Positions 2,410 through 28,185 of a DNA stretch of 49,599 nucleotides are shown piece by piece. The DNA lies in the IMG/VR virus record IMGVR_UViG_3300046674_000334, positions 1-49,599 of that record; one strand, written 5' to 3'. Position numbers and translations under genes: made by a program. Position 1 is the stretch's first letter, and every line of letters starts with the position of its first letter. Below the pieces are notes generated by a model that saw only the letters and a program-made list of their open reading frames with translations, did not search any database and was not told the DNA's origin. This stretch comes from a virus.

Positions 2410-3840
2410 GTGGAACGAACCGACGTGCAATGGCTCACTCACCTGATCCGGTGCCACGACAAGGTGAAGCCCGGCCTGCAACTGCTCGACAACTACTACG
2501 AGGGCAAGCAGCCGCTGAGCTACATGGCTCCCGAGCTGCAGGCCGAGCTTCAGGAGTCTGTGCGCCAGGTCGTCATCAACTGGCCGCGCCTGGTCGTAGA
2601 CAGCCTCGAGGAGCGGCTCGACGTCGAAGGCTTTCGTTTCCCTGGTGAGCCGACCGCAGACGAGGAGCTGTGGCGGATCTGGCAGGCCAACGACATGGAT
2701 ACCCAGTCCCAGCAGGGGCATCTCGACGCGCTGATCATGGGTCGCGCCTACGTGGTGATTGGTACCCGTGAAGGGGACGACAAGACCCCCCTGATCACGG
2801 TCGAGAGCGCGCTCGACATGTACGCCGAGTTCGATCCGCGGACCCGCGAGGTCATTGCCGCGGTGAAGCGTTGGTCGGTGGACGACGAGGACGGCAAGGT
2901 CGAGCACGCAACCCTGTACCTGCCGGACTCGACGTCCTGGTGGGTAAAGGAAAAGGGTCTGTGGATCGAGGACAAGGACCACGCCCGCGACGATCACGAA
3001 ATCGGCGAGGTCATGGTCGAGGTTCTTGCGAACCGTCCCCGGCTGAAGAACTCAAACGGTGTCAGCGAGCTCGCGGACGTCATTCCGTTGTCCGACGCAG
3101 CGTGCAAGATCGCCACGGACATGATGGTGTCCGCCGAGTACCACGCCACTCCGAGGCGCGTCGCGTTCGGCTTTGGCGAGGAGGACTTCGTCGACGCGAA
3201 TGGGCGGAAGGTCTCGGCGTTCAGCCGGATCATCGGCCGGATGTGGGCGACGGAGAAGAACCGCAAGGAGGACGGTGCCGACGTCATCCAGTTCCCCGAA
3301 GCCCTGCTGACCAACTTCCACCAGACGCTTACCGCCTTGGCGGTCCTGGTGGCCAGCCTGTCTGGCATGCCGCCGCACTTCCTCGGCCAGGCGGCCGACA
3401 ACCCCGCGTCCGCCGACGGCATCCGCTCCTCGGAAACTCGCCTGGTCAAGCGCGCAGAGCGTCGTCAGCGTGGCGACGGCGGTACCTGGGAGCGGGTGAA
3501 CCGCAAGGTTCGGCGCTTGGTCGATGGCGATTGGAGCCCCGAGGCCCGTTCGCTGGAGACGATCTGGCGGGACGCTTCGACGCCGACGATCGCGCAAAAG
3601 GCGGACGCTGCGGTGAAGCTCTTCACGGCGAAGATCGTGCCCTTGCGGCAGACCCGTGAGGATATGAGCTACACCCAGGCGCAGATCCAGCGCATGGAGG
3701 AGCAGGACGAGCAGGCTGCCCAGGACGTAATGCAGCGCATCATGGGCGGCGACCTGGCCGCCCTGGAGGCGGGCCCGAAACCGCCCGCTGAACTCATCCT
3801 GCCGGAGCAGGCCGCGTCCGAGCCGGTTCCGGTGAGCTGA
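2410..3840 (+). CDS. Portal protein
   Basis: A 476-residue protein of the SPP1-gp6-like portal type. Early features are the helical segment LDNYYEGKQPLSYM and a conserved acidic/Trp region; a long helix-rich crown-like C-terminus contains EEQDEQAAQD. It should form the dodecameric ring at the capsid vertex through which DNA passes and to which terminase docks. Its place between terminase and the minor head gene is canonical. Confidence 0.92.
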   Translation: MERTDVQWLTHLIRCHDKVKPGLQLLDNYYEGKQPLSYMAPELQAELQESVRQVVINWPRLVVDSLEERLDVEGFRFPGEPTADEELWRIWQANDMDTQSQQGHLDALIMGRAYVVIGTREGDDKTPLITVESALDMYAEFDPRTREVIAAVKRWSVDDEDGKVEHATLYLPDSTSWWVKEKGLWIEDKDHARDDHEIGEVMVEVLANRPRLKNSNGVSELADVIPLSDAACKIATDMMVSAEYHATPRRVAFGFGEEDFVDANGRKVSAFSRIIGRMWATEKNRKEDGADVIQFPEALLTNFHQTLTALAVLVASLSGMPPHFLGQAADNPASADGIRSSETRLVKRAERRQRGDGGTWERVNRKVRRLVDGDWSPEARSLETIWRDASTPTIAQKADAAVKLFTAKIVPLRQTREDMSYTQAQIQRMEEQDEQAAQDVMQRIMGGDLAALEAGPKPPAELILPEQAASEPVPVS

Positions 3841-3841
3841 C

Positions 3842-4903
3842 GTGCCGACGCCCCGGACCGCGGAGGAGCTTGGCCTGGCCTTCCACGCGGCGCAGGCGCG
3901 CAGGGCGAGGCTCACAGCGAACGAGATTCAGCGTCTGTGGGCCCAGCTGGACCGCCGCAACTTCACTGCCTCGTGGAACAGCTCGGTCGGCCCGAGGGTC
4001 ATTCGAGCGTTGACCGCCGGCCAGCTGGCATCGGCGGCCGCCGCGGACGAGTACGTGGACGCGGTCGCAGAAGCCGAGGGCGCGGATCCGGAGCGGGCCG
4101 GCCGCGTCCGGCCCGAGGGCTTCGCTGGTGTGGCGGCGGACGGCCGGGCGCTCGAGTCCCTGATGTACCTGCCGCTGATCACGTCGAAGACGCGGATCGG
4201 GGCGGGCCAGTCGGTAGACGACGCGCTGATGGCTGGGCTGCGGCAGGCGCTGCGAATCGGGGCGTCGGAAGTCACGCAGGCTGGCCGAGGAGCGGTGGGA
4301 ACGTCGATGACGGGCGCCCGGACCATCCAGGGCTACGTGCGAGTCGTGCAGCCTCCCGCCTGTTCCCGGTGCGTGATCCTGGCGGGCAAGGAGTACGGCT
4401 GGAACAAGGGATTTCAGCGGCATCCGAAGTGCGACTGCATCCACCTACCGACCACGCTGATCGCGCGGAACCGGGCCGGCCGCGGGTCGATCGGCTCTGG
4501 CCGGTTCTCTCCGACGACACGGCCGGGTGAGGGCGGCCGTGGATTCCTCGACCCCCGGGCGTACTTCAACACCCTGTCGCGTGCCGAGCAGGACAGGGTG
4601 TTCACGGCGGATGGCGCCCGTGCGATCCGCGAGGGCGGTGACATCAACGCCATCGTGAACGCGCGCCGCGGCATGTACACCACGACGTCGGGGCTGCGTG
4701 CGACGCGGGAAGGCACCTCGCGCCGCGGCGAGTTCTACCGGGCCGAGAGGCGCCGGGACGTTGCCGCGGGCCGCGTCCGGGCTGACATCGGCCGCAGGTA
4801 CTCGCTGACCACCGCCCGGCTTCTGCCGGAGGAGATTTTCGAGCTCGCCGGCTCCCGCGATCAAGCGATCGCGATGCTCCGGCGCTTCGGCTACATGGGG
4901 TAG
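3842..4903 (+). CDS. MuF/VG15-like minor head protein
   Basis: A 353-residue protein starting with GTG one base after the portal stop. About residues 175-205 carry the family signature: CSRC, then GW..GF.RHPKCDC, a Cys/His cluster probably binding zinc. Minor head proteins of this group attach inside or near the portal and may be injected with DNA. The C-terminal 130 residues are basic and Arg-rich and do not match a toxin or protease that I recognise. The order portal, MuF, scaffold is standard. Confidence 0.85.
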   Translation: MPTPRTAEELGLAFHAAQARRARLTANEIQRLWAQLDRRNFTASWNSSVGPRVIRALTAGQLASAAAADEYVDAVAEAEGADPERAGRVRPEGFAGVAADGRALESLMYLPLITSKTRIGAGQSVDDALMAGLRQALRIGASEVTQAGRGAVGTSMTGARTIQGYVRVVQPPACSRCVILAGKEYGWNKGFQRHPKCDCIHLPTTLIARNRAGRGSIGSGRFSPTTRPGEGGRGFLDPRAYFNTLSRAEQDRVFTADGARAIREGGDINAIVNARRGMYTTTSGLRATREGTSRRGEFYRAERRRDVAAGRVRADIGRRYSLTTARLLPEEIFELAGSRDQAIAMLRRFGYMG

Positions 4904-4964: not shown

Positions 4965-5660
4965 ATGCAGAACACGCGAAACCGCTGGCTTTCCGCTGCC
5001 CAGAGCGCGGACTGGTTCCAGCTCACCCGGCACGACGACCCCGAGCCGGCCAATCCGGATTCGGCCGACCCGGCCGAACCCGAGGGGGAGCCGGACGGAG
5101 CTCCTGAGGGCGAACCGGAGGGCGCCGACAAGCTTGGCGACGCCGGCAAGAAGGCCCTCGACGCCATGAAGGCCCAGCGCGCCGAGGCCAAGAAGGCGGC
5201 CGCCGCCGAGAAGAAGCGCGCTGACGAACTCGCCCGCAAGGTGGCGGAGTTCGAGGACCGCGACAAGTCCGACCTGGACAAGGCTACAGAGAAGGCCGAG
5301 CGCGCCGCCGAGGCAGCATCCAAGGCCACTGCGCGGGCCGTCCGCGCGGAAGTGAAGGCCGCAGCAGCTGACTTTGCTGACCCTGAGGACGCCGCCCCTT
5401 TCCTCGATCTGACCGCGTACACCAGCGACGACGGGGAGATCGACACCGAGGCGATCTCGGCCGATCTCGAAGCGCTGCTGGAGCGCAAGCCGCACCTGCG
5501 TCGCCCGGCCGCCGAGCCGGAGAAGAAGAAGCAGCCCAAGCCCGACCCGGGCCAGGGTGCACGCCCCTCGCAGCCCGTGACGGATTTCCGCACGGCCAGC
5601 CCCGAGGAGTACCGGGCGGAGCTCGCCCGGATCGCTCCGGGATTCCGCCCCCGCTCGTGA
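4965..5660 (+). CDS. Capsid scaffolding protein
   Basis: A 231-residue protein: acidic, Pro/Glu-rich segment (25-55), long Ala/Lys/Glu coiled coil (about 60-125), and a short C-terminal conserved patch TASPEEYRAELARIAPGF, which in scaffolds binds coat protein. It would guide prohead assembly and then leave or be degraded. Residues W17-D24 read WFQLTRHD, nearly identical to W10-D17 of the major capsid protein (WFRLDRHD). A gene for a Prp-like protease overlaps its 3' end by four bases. Confidence 0.88.
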   Translation: MQNTRNRWLSAAQSADWFQLTRHDDPEPANPDSADPAEPEGEPDGAPEGEPEGADKLGDAGKKALDAMKAQRAEAKKAAAAEKKRADELARKVAEFEDRDKSDLDKATEKAERAAEAASKATARAVRAEVKAAAADFADPEDAAPFLDLTAYTSDDGEIDTEAISADLEALLERKPHLRRPAAEPEKKKQPKPDPGQGARPSQPVTDFRTASPEEYRAELARIAPGFRPRS

Positions 5661-5845
5661 TCCGAATCCGTGCCCGTTTGGGCGACGGGCGCACCTCCAT
5701 CGAGGTGACCGGACACGAGGAGCACGCCGTGGACGGCCGCGTCTGCGCGGCGATCACAGCCATCACTCAAACCGCGCTGCTGGGCCTTGAGCAGTACGCC
5801 CTGCAGTACCCGGACCTCGTGTCCGTATCGATCACCGAGGAGTAA
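5657..5845 (+). CDS. Prp-like cysteine protease (putative capsid maturation protease)
   Basis: A 62-residue protein resembling the ribosomal-processing cysteine protease Prp (formerly DUF464). It shows the expected Gly-His (GHEEHA, H20) and, ten residues on, Val-Cys-Ala-Ala (GRVCAAITAITQT, C30), which would be the His/Cys catalytic pair. Prp cleaves the N-terminus of ribosomal protein L27 in Firmicutes, and in staphylococcal phage 80alpha cleaves scaffold and capsid N-termini. Usual Prp proteins are about 105 residues, so this is a compact form. GTG start overlaps the scaffold stop; capsid gene follows after 3 bases. Confidence 0.72.
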   Translation: MIRIRARLGDGRTSIEVTGHEEHAVDGRVCAAITAITQTALLGLEQYALQYPDLVSVSITEE

Positions 5846-5848
5846 TCC

Positions 5849-7171
5849 ATGACCACACAGACGGCTGCCAAGCCGTGGTTCCGGCTCGACCGCCACGATG
5901 TGCGGTCCACCCTGCCGGCCGCGATTCAGGCGGCGATGCAGAACGGCCTTCTGGACCGCACGTTTCAGGAGGCGCTGCGCCCCGAGTTCATCTTCCCGGC
6001 GATCGCCGATCCGGAGCCGTGGCAGGGCGGGCTTGGCGACACCAAGACGATGACCCGCAAGGGTCTGATCGCGCCGGACACCACCCCGATCACCGGTTCG
6101 GACCCGTCGACCGGGTCCTACGGCGTCGAGCAGTGGTCCGTCACGATGGACCAGTACGGTAAGTCGATCGACACGAACCTGCTGAACAGCCGAATGATGC
6201 TGGCGTCGAAGTACCTGGCAGACGTTCAGACGCTCGGCATCCATGCAGGGCAGACTCTGAACCGGATCGCCCGCGACAAGCTCTACGGCGGATACGCGGG
6301 CGGCCGGACCTGGGTGACCACGGCCGGTAGCTCCGACACGTCGATGATTGTGGACTCGGTCACCGGGTTCACCAAGGTTCTCGTCAACGGCGTGCCCGTC
6401 GCGGTGTCCGCGTCGAACCCGCTCACGGTCTCCATCGCCGGTGTCGCTAACACCGTGACCGGCGTGAACGTGGGCACGAAGACGCTGACTCTCGGCACGG
6501 CCCGCGCCGACGTGGTCGGCGATTCGGTTGTCGCCGCGAACGCCCCGACGACCATCCGGCCGGGCGCTCAGACGACCGCCTACAACCTGGCAGCAGGCAA
6601 CCTGGCCACGTTCGCCATGTTCCGCGCCGCAGTCACCCGGCTGCGGAAGATGAACGTTCCGACGGTGAACGGCAACTATGTCGCTCACATCGACCCGGAC
6701 ACCGAGAGCCAGCTGTTCGCGGACTCCGAGTTCAAGCAGCTCTACCAGGGCCGCGGCGACTCCGACGTGTACCGCAACCTGTCGATCGGCACATTCGGCG
6801 GACTCGACTGGGTCCGCAACAACGAGGTGCCCACCATCGCTGCGGGCAACCCGGCAACTGGCGGCACCGCGGTTACGGTGCACCGCCCGGTCGTGGTTGG
6901 CGCCGGCGCACTCGTCGCCTCGCCGTTCGAGGACCAGGCCGGTCTTCTCCAGGAAACCGGCGTGGCGGACGTTCCGGAGATCGCGATGCTCGACGTGGCG
7001 CCGGGCGTGCAGGTCGCCCGGATCGTGCGCCCGCCGCAGGACCGTCTGCAGCAGGTCGTCGCAACCACATGGGCGTGGACGGGCGACTACGGGGTGCCGT
7101 CCGACTCGCTGGCCAATAACGATCCCGCCCTCTACAAGCGCGCGGTTGTGCTGGAGCACTCCGAGACCTGA
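5849..7171 (+). CDS. Major capsid protein
   Basis: A 440-residue protein placed directly after scaffold and protease, with an excellent start. The region about 165-235 is a Val/Thr/Gly-rich beta insertion resembling the insertion domain of P22-type HK97-fold coats; the flanking parts carry the shell fold (for example NMNVPTVNGNYVAHIDP-like text near 270-290). It builds the icosahedral head. The N-terminal WFRLDRHD (10-17) matches the scaffold and is a candidate processing site. A strong hairpin follows the stop, fitting very high expression. Confidence 0.9.
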   Translation: MTTQTAAKPWFRLDRHDVRSTLPAAIQAAMQNGLLDRTFQEALRPEFIFPAIADPEPWQGGLGDTKTMTRKGLIAPDTTPITGSDPSTGSYGVEQWSVTMDQYGKSIDTNLLNSRMMLASKYLADVQTLGIHAGQTLNRIARDKLYGGYAGGRTWVTTAGSSDTSMIVDSVTGFTKVLVNGVPVAVSASNPLTVSIAGVANTVTGVNVGTKTLTLGTARADVVGDSVVAANAPTTIRPGAQTTAYNLAAGNLATFAMFRAAVTRLRKMNVPTVNGNYVAHIDPDTESQLFADSEFKQLYQGRGDSDVYRNLSIGTFGGLDWVRNNEVPTIAAGNPATGGTAVTVHRPVVVGAGALVASPFEDQAGLLQETGVADVPEIAMLDVAPGVQVARIVRPPQDRLQQVVATTWAWTGDYGVPSDSLANNDPALYKRAVVLEHSET

Positions 7172-22219: not shown

Positions 22220-22642
22220 ATGGCCGTGTACGTGGATGAGACCAAGGACTGGACCTTCATTGCGAAGGCGCGGGGGCTCCGGCACACGCACTGGTGTCAC
22301 CTCACCGCCGACACCGAGGATGAGTTGCACGCCTTCGCCGCCAAGCTCGGACTGCGCAGATCTTGGTTCCAGAAGAAGTCTGACCAGGACTACCGCTGGC
22401 ACTACGACATCGTGCCGTCGAAGCGCGCCCAGGCTGTCCGCATGGGGGCTCAGGAGGTTGATCGCCGCTTTGTGGGCCAGCTGATGATCCGCCGCCGGGA
22501 AGAGCGCGACGGCGTCGAACCCGGCGCCGAGGTTGGACCGCGTTGCGGTAACAACCCGAACGTCCGCCTCAGTGCGGGCGACCAGCAGGCCGTCGACGAG
22601 TTCAAGGCATACCTGCGCCAGCGGAAGCAGGGCGCCGCGTGA
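22220..22642 (+). CDS. DUF4031-family protein
   Basis: A 140-residue protein. Its first 80 residues fit the DUF4031 pattern: MAVYVDE, HCHLTADTEDELHAFAAKLGL (as WCHLTADTEDELHAFA), RRSWFQ, then HYDIVPSKR and a final GA motif. Members are found across actinobacteria with no settled role. A variable tail (about 90-140) follows. A GGGGAGA ribosome site is present, and it overlaps the recombinase gene by four bases, so the two are co-translated. Confidence 0.72.
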   Translation: MAVYVDETKDWTFIAKARGLRHTHWCHLTADTEDELHAFAAKLGLRRSWFQKKSDQDYRWHYDIVPSKRAQAVRMGAQEVDRRFVGQLMIRRREERDGVEPGAEVGPRCGNNPNVRLSAGDQQAVDEFKAYLRQRKQGAA

Positions 22643-23673
22643 CTGCTCTCGCTCCGCGCCCGTCAGCAGAGCTGTCGACCGACCGGCACGACCCCCGTGA
22701 CGACTGGCCCGACGAAGCCCGCGCCCTCGCCGACCACCTCGCTGGCATCTACGGCGACCGAGACCCGCTACCCACCATCGCCGGAGGATGGATCGCCCGC
22801 CAGAAGTCCCGCCACACCAGGCGGGCCTACGCCCGAACCTTCCGGAGCTGGGAGGAGTACGCGCGCTCCACCACCATCCACCCGCTCCAGGCAAAGCTGC
22901 CGCTCGCCGACGCCTACGCCAAGCACCTCGCCAAGACCCCCACCCGGCTTGGCAAGCCGCCGTCCGAAGCGTCCCAGGCGCAGGCACTCGCCGCCGCCGG
23001 ATCCTTCTACACCTACGCCGCCCGACTCCAGGCCGTCGACGCCGACCCCTTCGCGGCCGTCAACCGGCCCTACGTCGACCCCGACTACTCGCCGACCGAG
23101 GGCATGACCGAGGAGGAGACGACGCGCCTCATCGAGACCGCGCGTGACTGGGCGCCCCGCTCCTACGCCCTCGTCATGCTGCTGTACCTCACCGGCGCCC
23201 GCGTCGACGAACTCCTCTCCCTCGACGCCGAACAGCTCGGCTACGACCGCGGGCACCGCACGCTGCCCCTCACGCAGAAGGGCGGGAAGAAGCGGCCAGC
23301 CCCCGTGCCGCCGCTCGCCCTCGACGCGCTCCTCGCCTACCTCGGCGACCGCACCGACGGCCCGCTGTTCGCCACCGACTCCGGCCGCCGCTGGACGCAG
23401 CCCGAAGTGTGGAAGCACCTTCGCGTCCTCGCCCGGCGCGCTGGCCTACCGCAGGCCGCCACCATCAAGCCGCACACGCTGCGGCACCAGTTCATCACCG
23501 ACAACCTCGCCAACGGCGTCCCGCTCCAAGACGTCCAAGACGCCGTCTCCCACTCCGACCCGCGCACCACCCAGCGCTACAACCGGCGGCGGCGCCAGCT
23601 CGACAACCACCCCGCCTACGCCCTCGCAGCCAAGCTCGCCAAGAGGCTCCAGCCCGAAGGAGAAACCGAATGA
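22639..23673 (+). CDS. Tyrosine recombinase (XerC/D-like), first of two
   Basis: A 344-residue recombinase with an N-terminal SAM-like core-binding domain (about 55-140) and a complete catalytic domain: R188 in LTGARVDEL, a Lys in TQKGGKKRP, H279 and R282 in PHTLRH, H305 in SHSDP and nucleophile Y314 in TTQRY. It should cut and rejoin DNA by a 3'-phosphotyrosine. GTG overlaps the DUF4031 stop. Its form is nearer to host Xer proteins than to the typical integrase at 26794-28185. It might resolve multimers, act as a second integrase or serve a passenger element. Confidence 0.9.
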   Translation: MTALAPRPSAELSTDRHDPRDDWPDEARALADHLAGIYGDRDPLPTIAGGWIARQKSRHTRRAYARTFRSWEEYARSTTIHPLQAKLPLADAYAKHLAKTPTRLGKPPSEASQAQALAAAGSFYTYAARLQAVDADPFAAVNRPYVDPDYSPTEGMTEEETTRLIETARDWAPRSYALVMLLYLTGARVDELLSLDAEQLGYDRGHRTLPLTQKGGKKRPAPVPPLALDALLAYLGDRTDGPLFATDSGRRWTQPEVWKHLRVLARRAGLPQAATIKPHTLRHQFITDNLANGVPLQDVQDAVSHSDPRTTQRYNRRRRQLDNHPAYALAAKLAKRLQPEGETE

Positions 23674-26793: not shown

Positions 26794-28185
26794 TCAATTT
26801 CCTTGATCCAGCGGGATGCTGGGGAGAATCTGGGGAGATCCATTAGTGCCCGAGATCCCCGCTGCCTGCTTCGCCGCCACATCCGCCGTCGAGGCGGGGG
26901 CACCGGCGCTCCCAGAGGTAACCCACCTGCCCAGCGCCGCAATTGCCATTGTCCCAGACTTTGGCATGAAGTGCGTGTACGTCCGCAGCGTGAAGGCGGG
27001 ATCCGTATGCCCGAGCCAGGCAGCCAGCTGCGTGATCGTCTCCCCCTCGTGGAGCACGATCGAGGCGAACGTGTGGCGGGTGACGTGGAAGCCATCCTCC
27101 CGCGGCATGTTCCACTCCTTGCGCGCCCAGGGCTTTTTCCCGTTCGCCTGGACGTACTCGGTCTCAGGCTCCGGAATGACCCCAGCCCTGGCGAGGGCCG
27201 GCTTCCACTGCTTGTCGTCGAACGTGGTCCGATTGATCGCTCCGCCCGAAAGACCCTTAGTTCGCGTAGTGGTCACTAGGAGACGAACTGTCACCAATGG
27301 GCGCTTACCCCATGGCAGGCTCGGCCGGTTGGGGTCGATCCAGGGCAGGGTCACCTCCACCGTGGGGAAGATGTTCGCGTACTCCTTGACGGCCGCCGCC
27401 AGCTCGGGAGGACACGGAGCATCCCGCAGCTTGCCTCGCTTCGGCGGAGCGAACGCCAGCTTGCCGCCGACCTTCACCACCTGGCGCCGGACGTGGATCT
27501 CCTCGCCGTCCACATCGTCCGGAGAGAACCCAAAACACTCGCCCTGCCGAAGTCCCGCTCCCACGGCCAGATCCATCAGAATCCGGTAACGGTCTCCAAG
27601 TTCCTTGCGCACCGCGGCAACGGTCTCTTCCGCCCAGGCCTTCGCCTTTGATGGCGGCGCGGCCGGCGGCGACAAGTCCTCGTCCCTGAAGGGGTTGTCG
27701 GGAATGCGCTTCGCCTTATGCGCGGCCTGCAGGATCGACGAGAAATGACGCCACGTCACAATGACGGTGTTGACGTCGATGTCCTGCTCGGCCCGGATCA
27801 GCCAGCGCCGGATCTCGTCGGGGCCAATCCTGTTCAAAGGCATGCTGCCGATGTGCGGCAGGATGTGCTTGAAAATGCGTGGCTTCATCGACTGCTTTGT
27901 GCCCGGCGACAACCGAAGGTTCGGCCACCAGGTGCCCTCGACGTACTCCTGCAGCGTGATATTGCCGTCGCGCGGGTCGTAGAACGTGCCGCGACTCGAA
28001 TCCGTAGCGCTCGCCTTCAGCCACGCCTTCGCCGGGGCTTCCTTGTCGAACGAGCGGTCACGGACTCCAGGGATGCCGGCGACCCGCCACCGCTTGCCCT
28101 TCCCGTAGCGGGCCGTCTTCCGGCGCTCTCCCGTTGCAGGGTCAGGCCGCTTGCTGTACCAGCGATCTTCGATGTATCCCGGCAC
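26794..28185 (-). CDS. int: Phage integrase (tyrosine recombinase)
   Basis: A 463-residue protein with N-terminal arm-binding region (1-60), SAM-like core-binding domain (about 75-165) and catalytic domain: R213 in GAGLRQGE, Lys about 249 in PPKRGK, H367 and R370 in HVTRH, H393 in WLGHTD and nucleophile Y403 in LRTYTH. This is the actinomycete type with a long insertion (about 280-360). It would integrate the phage at a host attB. GTG start after GAAGGGA. The neighbouring repressor and att-like repeats support this as the true lysogeny integrase. Confidence 0.94.
   Translation of the reverse strand: MPGYIEDRWYSKRPDPATGERRKTARYGKGKRWRVAGIPGVRDRSFDKEAPAKAWLKASATDSSRGTFYDPRDGNITLQEYVEGTWWPNLRLSPGTKQSMKPRIFKHILPHIGSMPLNRIGPDEIRRWLIRAEQDIDVNTVIVTWRHFSSILQAAHKAKRIPDNPFRDEDLSPPAAPPSKAKAWAEETVAAVRKELGDRYRILMDLAVGAGLRQGECFGFSPDDVDGEEIHVRRQVVKVGGKLAFAPPKRGKLRDAPCPPELAAAVKEYANIFPTVEVTLPWIDPNRPSLPWGKRPLVTVRLLVTTTRTKGLSGGAINRTTFDDKQWKPALARAGVIPEPETEYVQANGKKPWARKEWNMPREDGFHVTRHTFASIVLHEGETITQLAAWLGHTDPAFTLRTYTHFMPKSGTMAIAALGRWVTSGSAGAPASTADVAAKQAAGISGTNGSPQILPSIPLDQGN
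26819..26837 (+). repeat. 19-base direct repeat, copy 2
   Basis: Exact second copy of the 19-base repeat at 26569. It lies within the last codons of the leftward integrase gene (encoding the text PQILP), so the coding sequence there is also part of the putative attachment site. Confidence 0.8.

Follow-up and report, generated by a model that had tools for sequence, protein, structure and literature searches.

A shortened Prp-family protein encoded by an actinobacterial phage and the N-terminal tag shared by its scaffold and capsid proteins

Results

Genes and features of the locus

The stretch of DNA analysed here, which we call the window, is a complete virus record from IMG/VR, 49,599 bases long, and belongs to an actinobacterial phage. 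Its head genes run in the order terminase, portal, VG15/MuF-like protein, scaffold, a small open reading frame (ORF) and major capsid protein. The features discussed below are listed here; an arrow marks the cut in a tag.

2410..3840, + strand: portal protein (SPP1_portal, E 1e-54); in the window it carries no tag
3842..4903, + strand: VG15/MuF-like minor head protein (Pfam VG15, 29.2 bits; phrog_1522); relatives are labelled 'capsid maturation protease'
4965..5660, + strand: head scaffolding protein, 231 aa, with N-terminal tag WFQLTRHD (phrog_4708, E 8e-26)
5013..5036, + strand: scaffold tag WFQLTRHD, residues 17-24 (motif in 84/89 scaffolds; register as in canonical Prp tags)
between bases 5033 and 5034, + strand: predicted scissile bond of the scaffold, H23↓D24 (canonical Prp tag register)
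5657..5845, + strand: mini-Prp, putative cysteine protease, 62 aa, GTG start (PF04327; hhalign; AF2 pLDDT 88.5)
5714..5716, + strand: His20 codon of mini-Prp (invariant in 54/54 relatives; counterpart of S. aureus Prp His22)
5744..5746, + strand: Cys30 codon of mini-Prp (invariant in 54/54 relatives; counterpart of S. aureus Prp Cys34)
5849..7171, + strand: major capsid protein, 440 aa, N4-gp56-like, with N-terminal tag WFRLDRHD (phrog_1357, E 1e-25)
5876..5899, + strand: capsid tag WFRLDRHD, residues 10-17 (initiator Met of Prp-less relatives aligns to D17; P-site composition)
between bases 5896 and 5897, + strand: predicted scissile bond of the capsid protein, H16↓D17 (initiator Met of Prp-less relatives; P-site composition)

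The phrog_4708 match to the scaffold starts at residue 24, right after the tag; Pfam Phage_scaffold also matches, under its cut-off (E 5e-6). On the capsid protein TIGR04387 scores 57.7 bits, slightly under cut-off, and a PDB search with this protein gave no usable match. The close joining of the three genes reported in the first-pass annotation is correct. Scaffold and Prp genes overlap by 4 bases, the Prp ORF starting within the scaffold stop codon region, and a gap of 3 bases separates the end of that ORF from the capsid start.

Two observations concern other genes. The label capsid or head maturation protease is common for VG15/MuF-like proteins, whose CxxC...HPxCxC pattern suggests a metal site. 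Elsewhere in the window lie two integrase-like genes on opposite strands (22639-23673, +; 26794-28185, -), both phrog_1; since it encodes two integrases, the phage is probably temperate.

The order scaffold-Prp-capsid recurs in 110 loci, mostly from IMG/VR (some of them sharing a contig), and GTDB genomes add 17 actinobacterial prophages with it. The sole tblastn match to the window Prp in 50,697 phage records is gp6 of Streptomyces phage Kromp, which occupies the same position and carries the GenBank label 'protease'.

A Prp homologue of 62 residues

Is the small ORF a Prp? The first-pass annotation had proposed so from a Gly-His pair and a following cysteine. Both are present in the 62-residue frame (G19-H20, and Cys30 in RVCAA, ten residues past H20), and the Prp profile PF04327 bears out the assignment: the window protein reaches 27.6 bits, barely above the cut-off of 27, and matches profile positions 1-53 of 90. 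In the genome search the window fragment reached 25.7 bits, under the cut-off. The same profile matches all 54 distinct relatives of mini-Prp (E <= 0.01). Run against the PDB, a profile of the mini-Prp family finds SMU.848 (2g0i; E 6e-5) and S. aureus Prp (4peo; E 0.005). Besides 17 actinobacterial prophages, the family pattern matches 34 others in GTDB genomes, for the most part Firmicutes Prps next to an L27 gene reading ...LQLFA↓HKKG; the sequence ...NLQLFA is the known Prp tag at the start of L27. Aligned by hhalign with 23 such L27-linked Prps, the mini-Prp family gives a probability of 98.9 and E 1e-17, and its His20 and Cys30 fall on the catalytic His and Cys of the host enzymes. Judged by profile comparison, the 62-residue ORF is a Prp homologue.

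It is a much shortened one. The relatives of mini-Prp are all about 62-74 aa long, against about 95-120 for the usual Prp, and the second half is short by about 45 residues. Weak second-domain matches persist, and the C-termini are alike (...QYPDRVRF... in hosts, ...QYPDLVSV... in phage). Both features point to a possible internal deletion fusing helix 1 of Prp to the end of helix 2. The His-Cys loop has two residues fewer than in host Prps, and hhalign places the gap at Asp31, a residue almost invariant in host Prps that has no counterpart in mini-Prp. Loss of Asp31 abolishes the activity of S. aureus Prp (PMC9405229). At the position of Ser38, the relatives of mini-Prp retain Ser or Thr.

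Structure prediction, which the first-pass annotation had proposed as a check, gave a divided answer. The AlphaFold2 model of mini-Prp is a strand-strand-helix (pLDDT 88.5). With Foldseek it matches nothing significantly in the PDB, S. aureus Prp standing at rank 17 (E 6.8, TM 0.44); in BFVD the top match is one phage mini-Prp model, A0A6J5LQL6 (TM 0.71, E 0.002). Given the PDB result, we do not make structure the main support.

A tag shared by scaffold and capsid proteins

The shared motif lies where the first-pass annotation had placed it, at residues 17-24 of the scaffold and 10-17 of the capsid protein. Six-frame translation of the 49.6-kb window yields exactly two instances of its strict form, W(x)FxLxR[HF][DENA], one in each of these proteins. 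When the two N-termini are compared blindly in 8-residue segments, exactly the tag pair is selected, and none of 300 shuffles matches its score.

In related loci the strict motif is found in 84 of 89 distinct scaffolds, against 1 in 89,000 shuffled scaffolds, while the scaffold sequence around it varies. Five scaffolds are without it: L022 and L110 have close variants, L075 has another tag, and the others are L033, whose start at the contig edge lies past the tag position, and L030. Across 95 distinct related loci the tag is present in both proteins where both ends are covered, few variants aside. Its composition is Phe at P6, Leu at P4, Arg at P2, His or Phe at P1 and Asp, Ala, Glu or Asn at P1'; the residue after the tag is D, E, N or A in almost all sequences.

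Tag spacing (W-F or W-x-F) agrees between scaffold and capsid with a Fisher p of 3e-8 when kinship is ignored; a tree-aware test finds 3 independent changes, 3/3 concordant, p 0.25. One locus, L297, is discordant. Covariation of the tag between the two proteins is suggestive, three changes falling short of significance.

Register and predicted cut site

The actinophage tag can be set against those of other phages. In the alignment of FNLQLF↓D (Acutalibacter), FDLARF↓D (actinophage scaffold variants) and FRLDRH↓D (window capsid), Phe at P6, Leu at P4 and Asp at P1' are common to all three, and P1 is aromatic or His. Compared with the canonical NLQxF↓A, the actinophage tag agrees at P6 (F), P4 (L), P1 (H/F) and P1' (D/A) and differs in lacking Gln at P3 and the usual Phe at P1. 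In S. aureus Prp, the P1 Phe stacks on the catalytic His, the P4 and P6 Leu lie at the dimer interface, and the P3 Gln bonds to Asp31 and Gly29 (PMC9405229). In actinophages, Asp31 is missing from the enzyme and the Gln from the tag, a double absence consistent with retargeting.

The first-pass annotation had credited this phage with a minimal Prp and a recognition motif of its own. A phage-encoded, shortened Prp is what the profile supports; the motif, by contrast, aligns register for register with the classical tag, F-x-L-x-x-[F/H]↓[A/D]. Nor is the system special to this phage. Phage-encoded Prps with scaffold and capsid tags occur more widely, and the window system is therefore a divergent branch of the Prp-type system.

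The tag follows Prp

Three comparisons bear on whether the tag goes with Prp or with the neighbouring VG15 gene. The first concerns capsid relatives of the Komagataeibacter phage type, none of whose 81 loci has a Prp match. These capsids begin M-[A/G]-I-x-N-F-P, seven residues that correspond to D17-V-R-S-T-L-P of the window, and their initiator Met aligns to Asp17, directly behind the tag. VG15 is absent from these relatives as well, so they alone cannot separate the two genes.

Phages that carry VG15 and lack Prp can separate them. VG15 is common to 93 phage records, and Kromp is the only one of these with a Prp match. In all eight VG15-bearing, Prp-less representatives, scaffold and capsid N-termini share no segment better than shuffles.

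The third comparison is with Prp-encoding phages. A shared N-terminal segment appears in all seven tested: the window, Kromp and five unrelated phages with full-length Prp, from Lactococcus, Oenococcus, Latilactobacillus, Acutalibacter and a faecal phage. The tags of these five, at both scaffold and capsid N-termini, are LNLQRFA, MKLQLFA/MNLQHFA, LNLQLFA, FNLQLFD and MLQLFA. (The Enterococcus record OR846610, returned by the Prp search, is a host chromosome with rplU-Prp-L27 and not a phage head cluster.) In an IMG/VR sample of other Prp-encoding loci, mostly Lactococcus-type, 45 of 49 have two-protein tags, dissimilar capsids included. Because the three comparisons agree, we conclude that tag and Prp travel together: the tag seen in the first pass is real on both proteins and follows Prp, not VG15.

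The Lactococcus-type phages L318-L354 deserve separate mention. Capsids of 345 and 372 aa with unlike sequences are exchanged in the same cassette and the Prp tag stays, as if demanded of any incoming capsid protein.

Tags on further proteins

The divergent relative L075 (IMGVR_UViG_3300016484_001067) has a different tag, of the LxSH↓D type, on three proteins beside a 74-residue Prp: VALASHD, VVLSTHD and AALSTHD, found on capsid, scaffold and portal. The sequences are those of the portal (277-330) MDTLQVPFRRAALSTHD, the scaffold (ORF ending 3747) LALPFRVVLSTHD and the capsid (near 3990) LRVPFQRVALASHD. An IMG/VR search with the L075 capsid returned only L075 itself.

The canonical tag also opens a tail-region protein in L301, Acutalibacter phage Fontainebleau (9917-10483) MKKKIFDLQLFD, and a tail-region protein in L303 (9722) begins MFETGLQLFA. 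Given these two starts, Prp may trim beyond the head.

Hosts

PF04327 matches in 2 of 395 Actinomycetes genomes, each time within this phage cassette, and six actinobacterial host L27 proteins begin MAHKKG, with no N-terminal extension. Since the hosts are without Prp, the host could not cut the tag, and the phage cannot borrow the enzyme as 80alpha does in Staphylococcus.

Discussion

Homology, gene order and co-occurrence, shared and conserved tags, and hosts without Prp and long L27 are what we observe at this locus. We think it quite probable that the window encodes a self-contained Prp maturation module, in which a shortened enzyme acts on a retargeted tag and cuts scaffold and capsid. 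The phage would encode a Prp of 62 aa with a His20/Cys30 dyad, translated between its two substrates, that removes the N-terminal tag from both during head assembly. The enzyme would recognize W-F-x-L-x-R-[H/F] (P7-P1) and cut before Asp or Ala; the scaffold bond would be H23↓D24 and the capsid bond H16↓D17. Enzyme and tag would have arrived jointly, as a module, on a capsid type that otherwise starts right at that point. Within this scheme, catalysis, the exact bond, when it is cut and any contribution to assembly or head expansion are what we infer.

Could mini-Prp bind the tag and escort scaffold and capsid together without cutting? Such a pseudo-protease or chaperone would suit a protein with neither a counterpart of Asp31 nor the middle of the fold. 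In 80alpha, moreover, the N-terminal peptide on both proteins may help them fold through one chaperone, and assembly can do without cleavage (PMC5744158), so the tag may matter even uncut. A pure binder, however, would not need a His and a Cys that are invariant in 54/54 relatives, nor does it account for the Ser/Thr kept at the Ser38 position or for the D, E, N or A that follows the tag in almost all sequences. We regard this alternative as unlikely.

A second alternative is that the motif is a docking element between scaffold and capsid, or scaffold and portal, which lies beside Prp by coincidence. The scaffold N-terminus is essential for assembly of 80alpha (PMC5744158), and the motif could mark a contact point of scaffold and capsid arm. 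Its absence from Prp-less capsid relatives and from the scaffolds and capsids of Prp-less VG15-type phages, together with the same two-protein tagging in unrelated phages that encode Prp, makes this reading improbable.

The GenBank label 'capsid maturation protease' in Kromp and many actinophages, like the name of phrog_1522 (head maturation protease), would make VG15 (3842-4903) the maturation protease and leave Prp another job. Yet Pfam assigns VG15 and no protease domain, the invariant CxRC...RHPxCxC pattern resembles a metal site, and the AF2 model (pLDDT 80) matches no protease fold in Foldseek. Prp is matched in Kromp alone among the 93 VG15 records, and the eight others inspected have no shared tag. 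We consider the proposal very improbable and, on the evidence of those 8/8 Prp-less phages, reject VG15 as the protease of the tag. That the phage Prp instead processes a host protein such as L27, its classical role, is scarcely credible, six actinobacterial L27s starting MAHKKG without extension.

If the shortened Prp does cut scaffold and capsid, how did the module arise? Here we lean only slightly towards a fuller history. A ribosomal protease of the host type would have moved into the head operon, been pared to about 62 residues and had its active-site loop rebuilt without the normally essential Asp. A new tag would have co-evolved on scaffold, capsid and, in L075, portal, and enzyme and tag would move as a unit between capsid types. 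The result would be among the smallest dedicated capsid maturation proteases.

80alpha can do without trimming, which raises the question of why its scaffold and capsid are left to a ribosomal protease of the host at all. That phages encode Prp in hosts which otherwise have no need of it suggests that trimming is worth a gene; its role is therefore testable where the essential processing of L27 does not interfere. The shorter enzyme, its changed loop and the changed tag also form a natural set from which the enzyme residues that determine Prp specificity can be read. The pair of Prp and tag is present, uncommented, in many phage genomes, as the 45/49 IMG/VR loci from other phages attest. A limited literature search, in which absence proves little, found no publication on phage-encoded Prp with capsid tags, those of Kromp included, nor did it turn up N-terminal data from Kromp virions.

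How does the window system compare with those already known? With Peptidase_Prp (PF04327, MEROPS C108), mini-Prp shares the profile match, the invariant G-H and C-A segment and the helix TALLGLE; it differs in its 62 aa against about 95-120, in the His-Cys loop shorter by two residues and in the absence of Asp31 and the middle part. A comparably short protein is in BFVD: A0A6J5LQL6, named 'Cysteine protease Prp' and assigned to an uncultured Caudovirales phage, has 61 aa and 35% identity (TM 0.71 to the mini-Prp model). In Lactococcus PLgT-1, Oenococcus Krappator149, Latilactobacillus TMW 1.1447 P1 and Acutalibacter Fontainebleau, Prp likewise lies in the head-gene cluster and scaffold and capsid are tagged, as is a tail-region protein in Fontainebleau; there, however, the enzyme is full-length, the tag is the canonical NLQxF and the Prp gene is mostly elsewhere, beside the portal. 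Kromp gp5-gp6-gp7 is the same cassette with the same tags, WFQLTRHD and WFRLDRHD, and does not differ in kind.

The closest functional precedent is 80alpha with its host Prp (PMC5744158, PMC9405229). Both systems have a Prp-family enzyme and a common N-terminal tag on scaffold and capsid, with a hydrophobic P6, Leu at P4, an aromatic residue (or His) at P1 and a small or acidic P1'. In 80alpha the protease comes from the host and the tag reads LxNLQxF↓A; here the protease is phage-encoded, the hosts are without Prp and long L27, and the tag reads WFxLxRH↓D, without Gln at P3. Prp processing of the 80alpha type is thus already known. What is new is a Prp that is encoded by the phage, shortened and paired with a retargeted tag, in hosts that have no Prp of their own.
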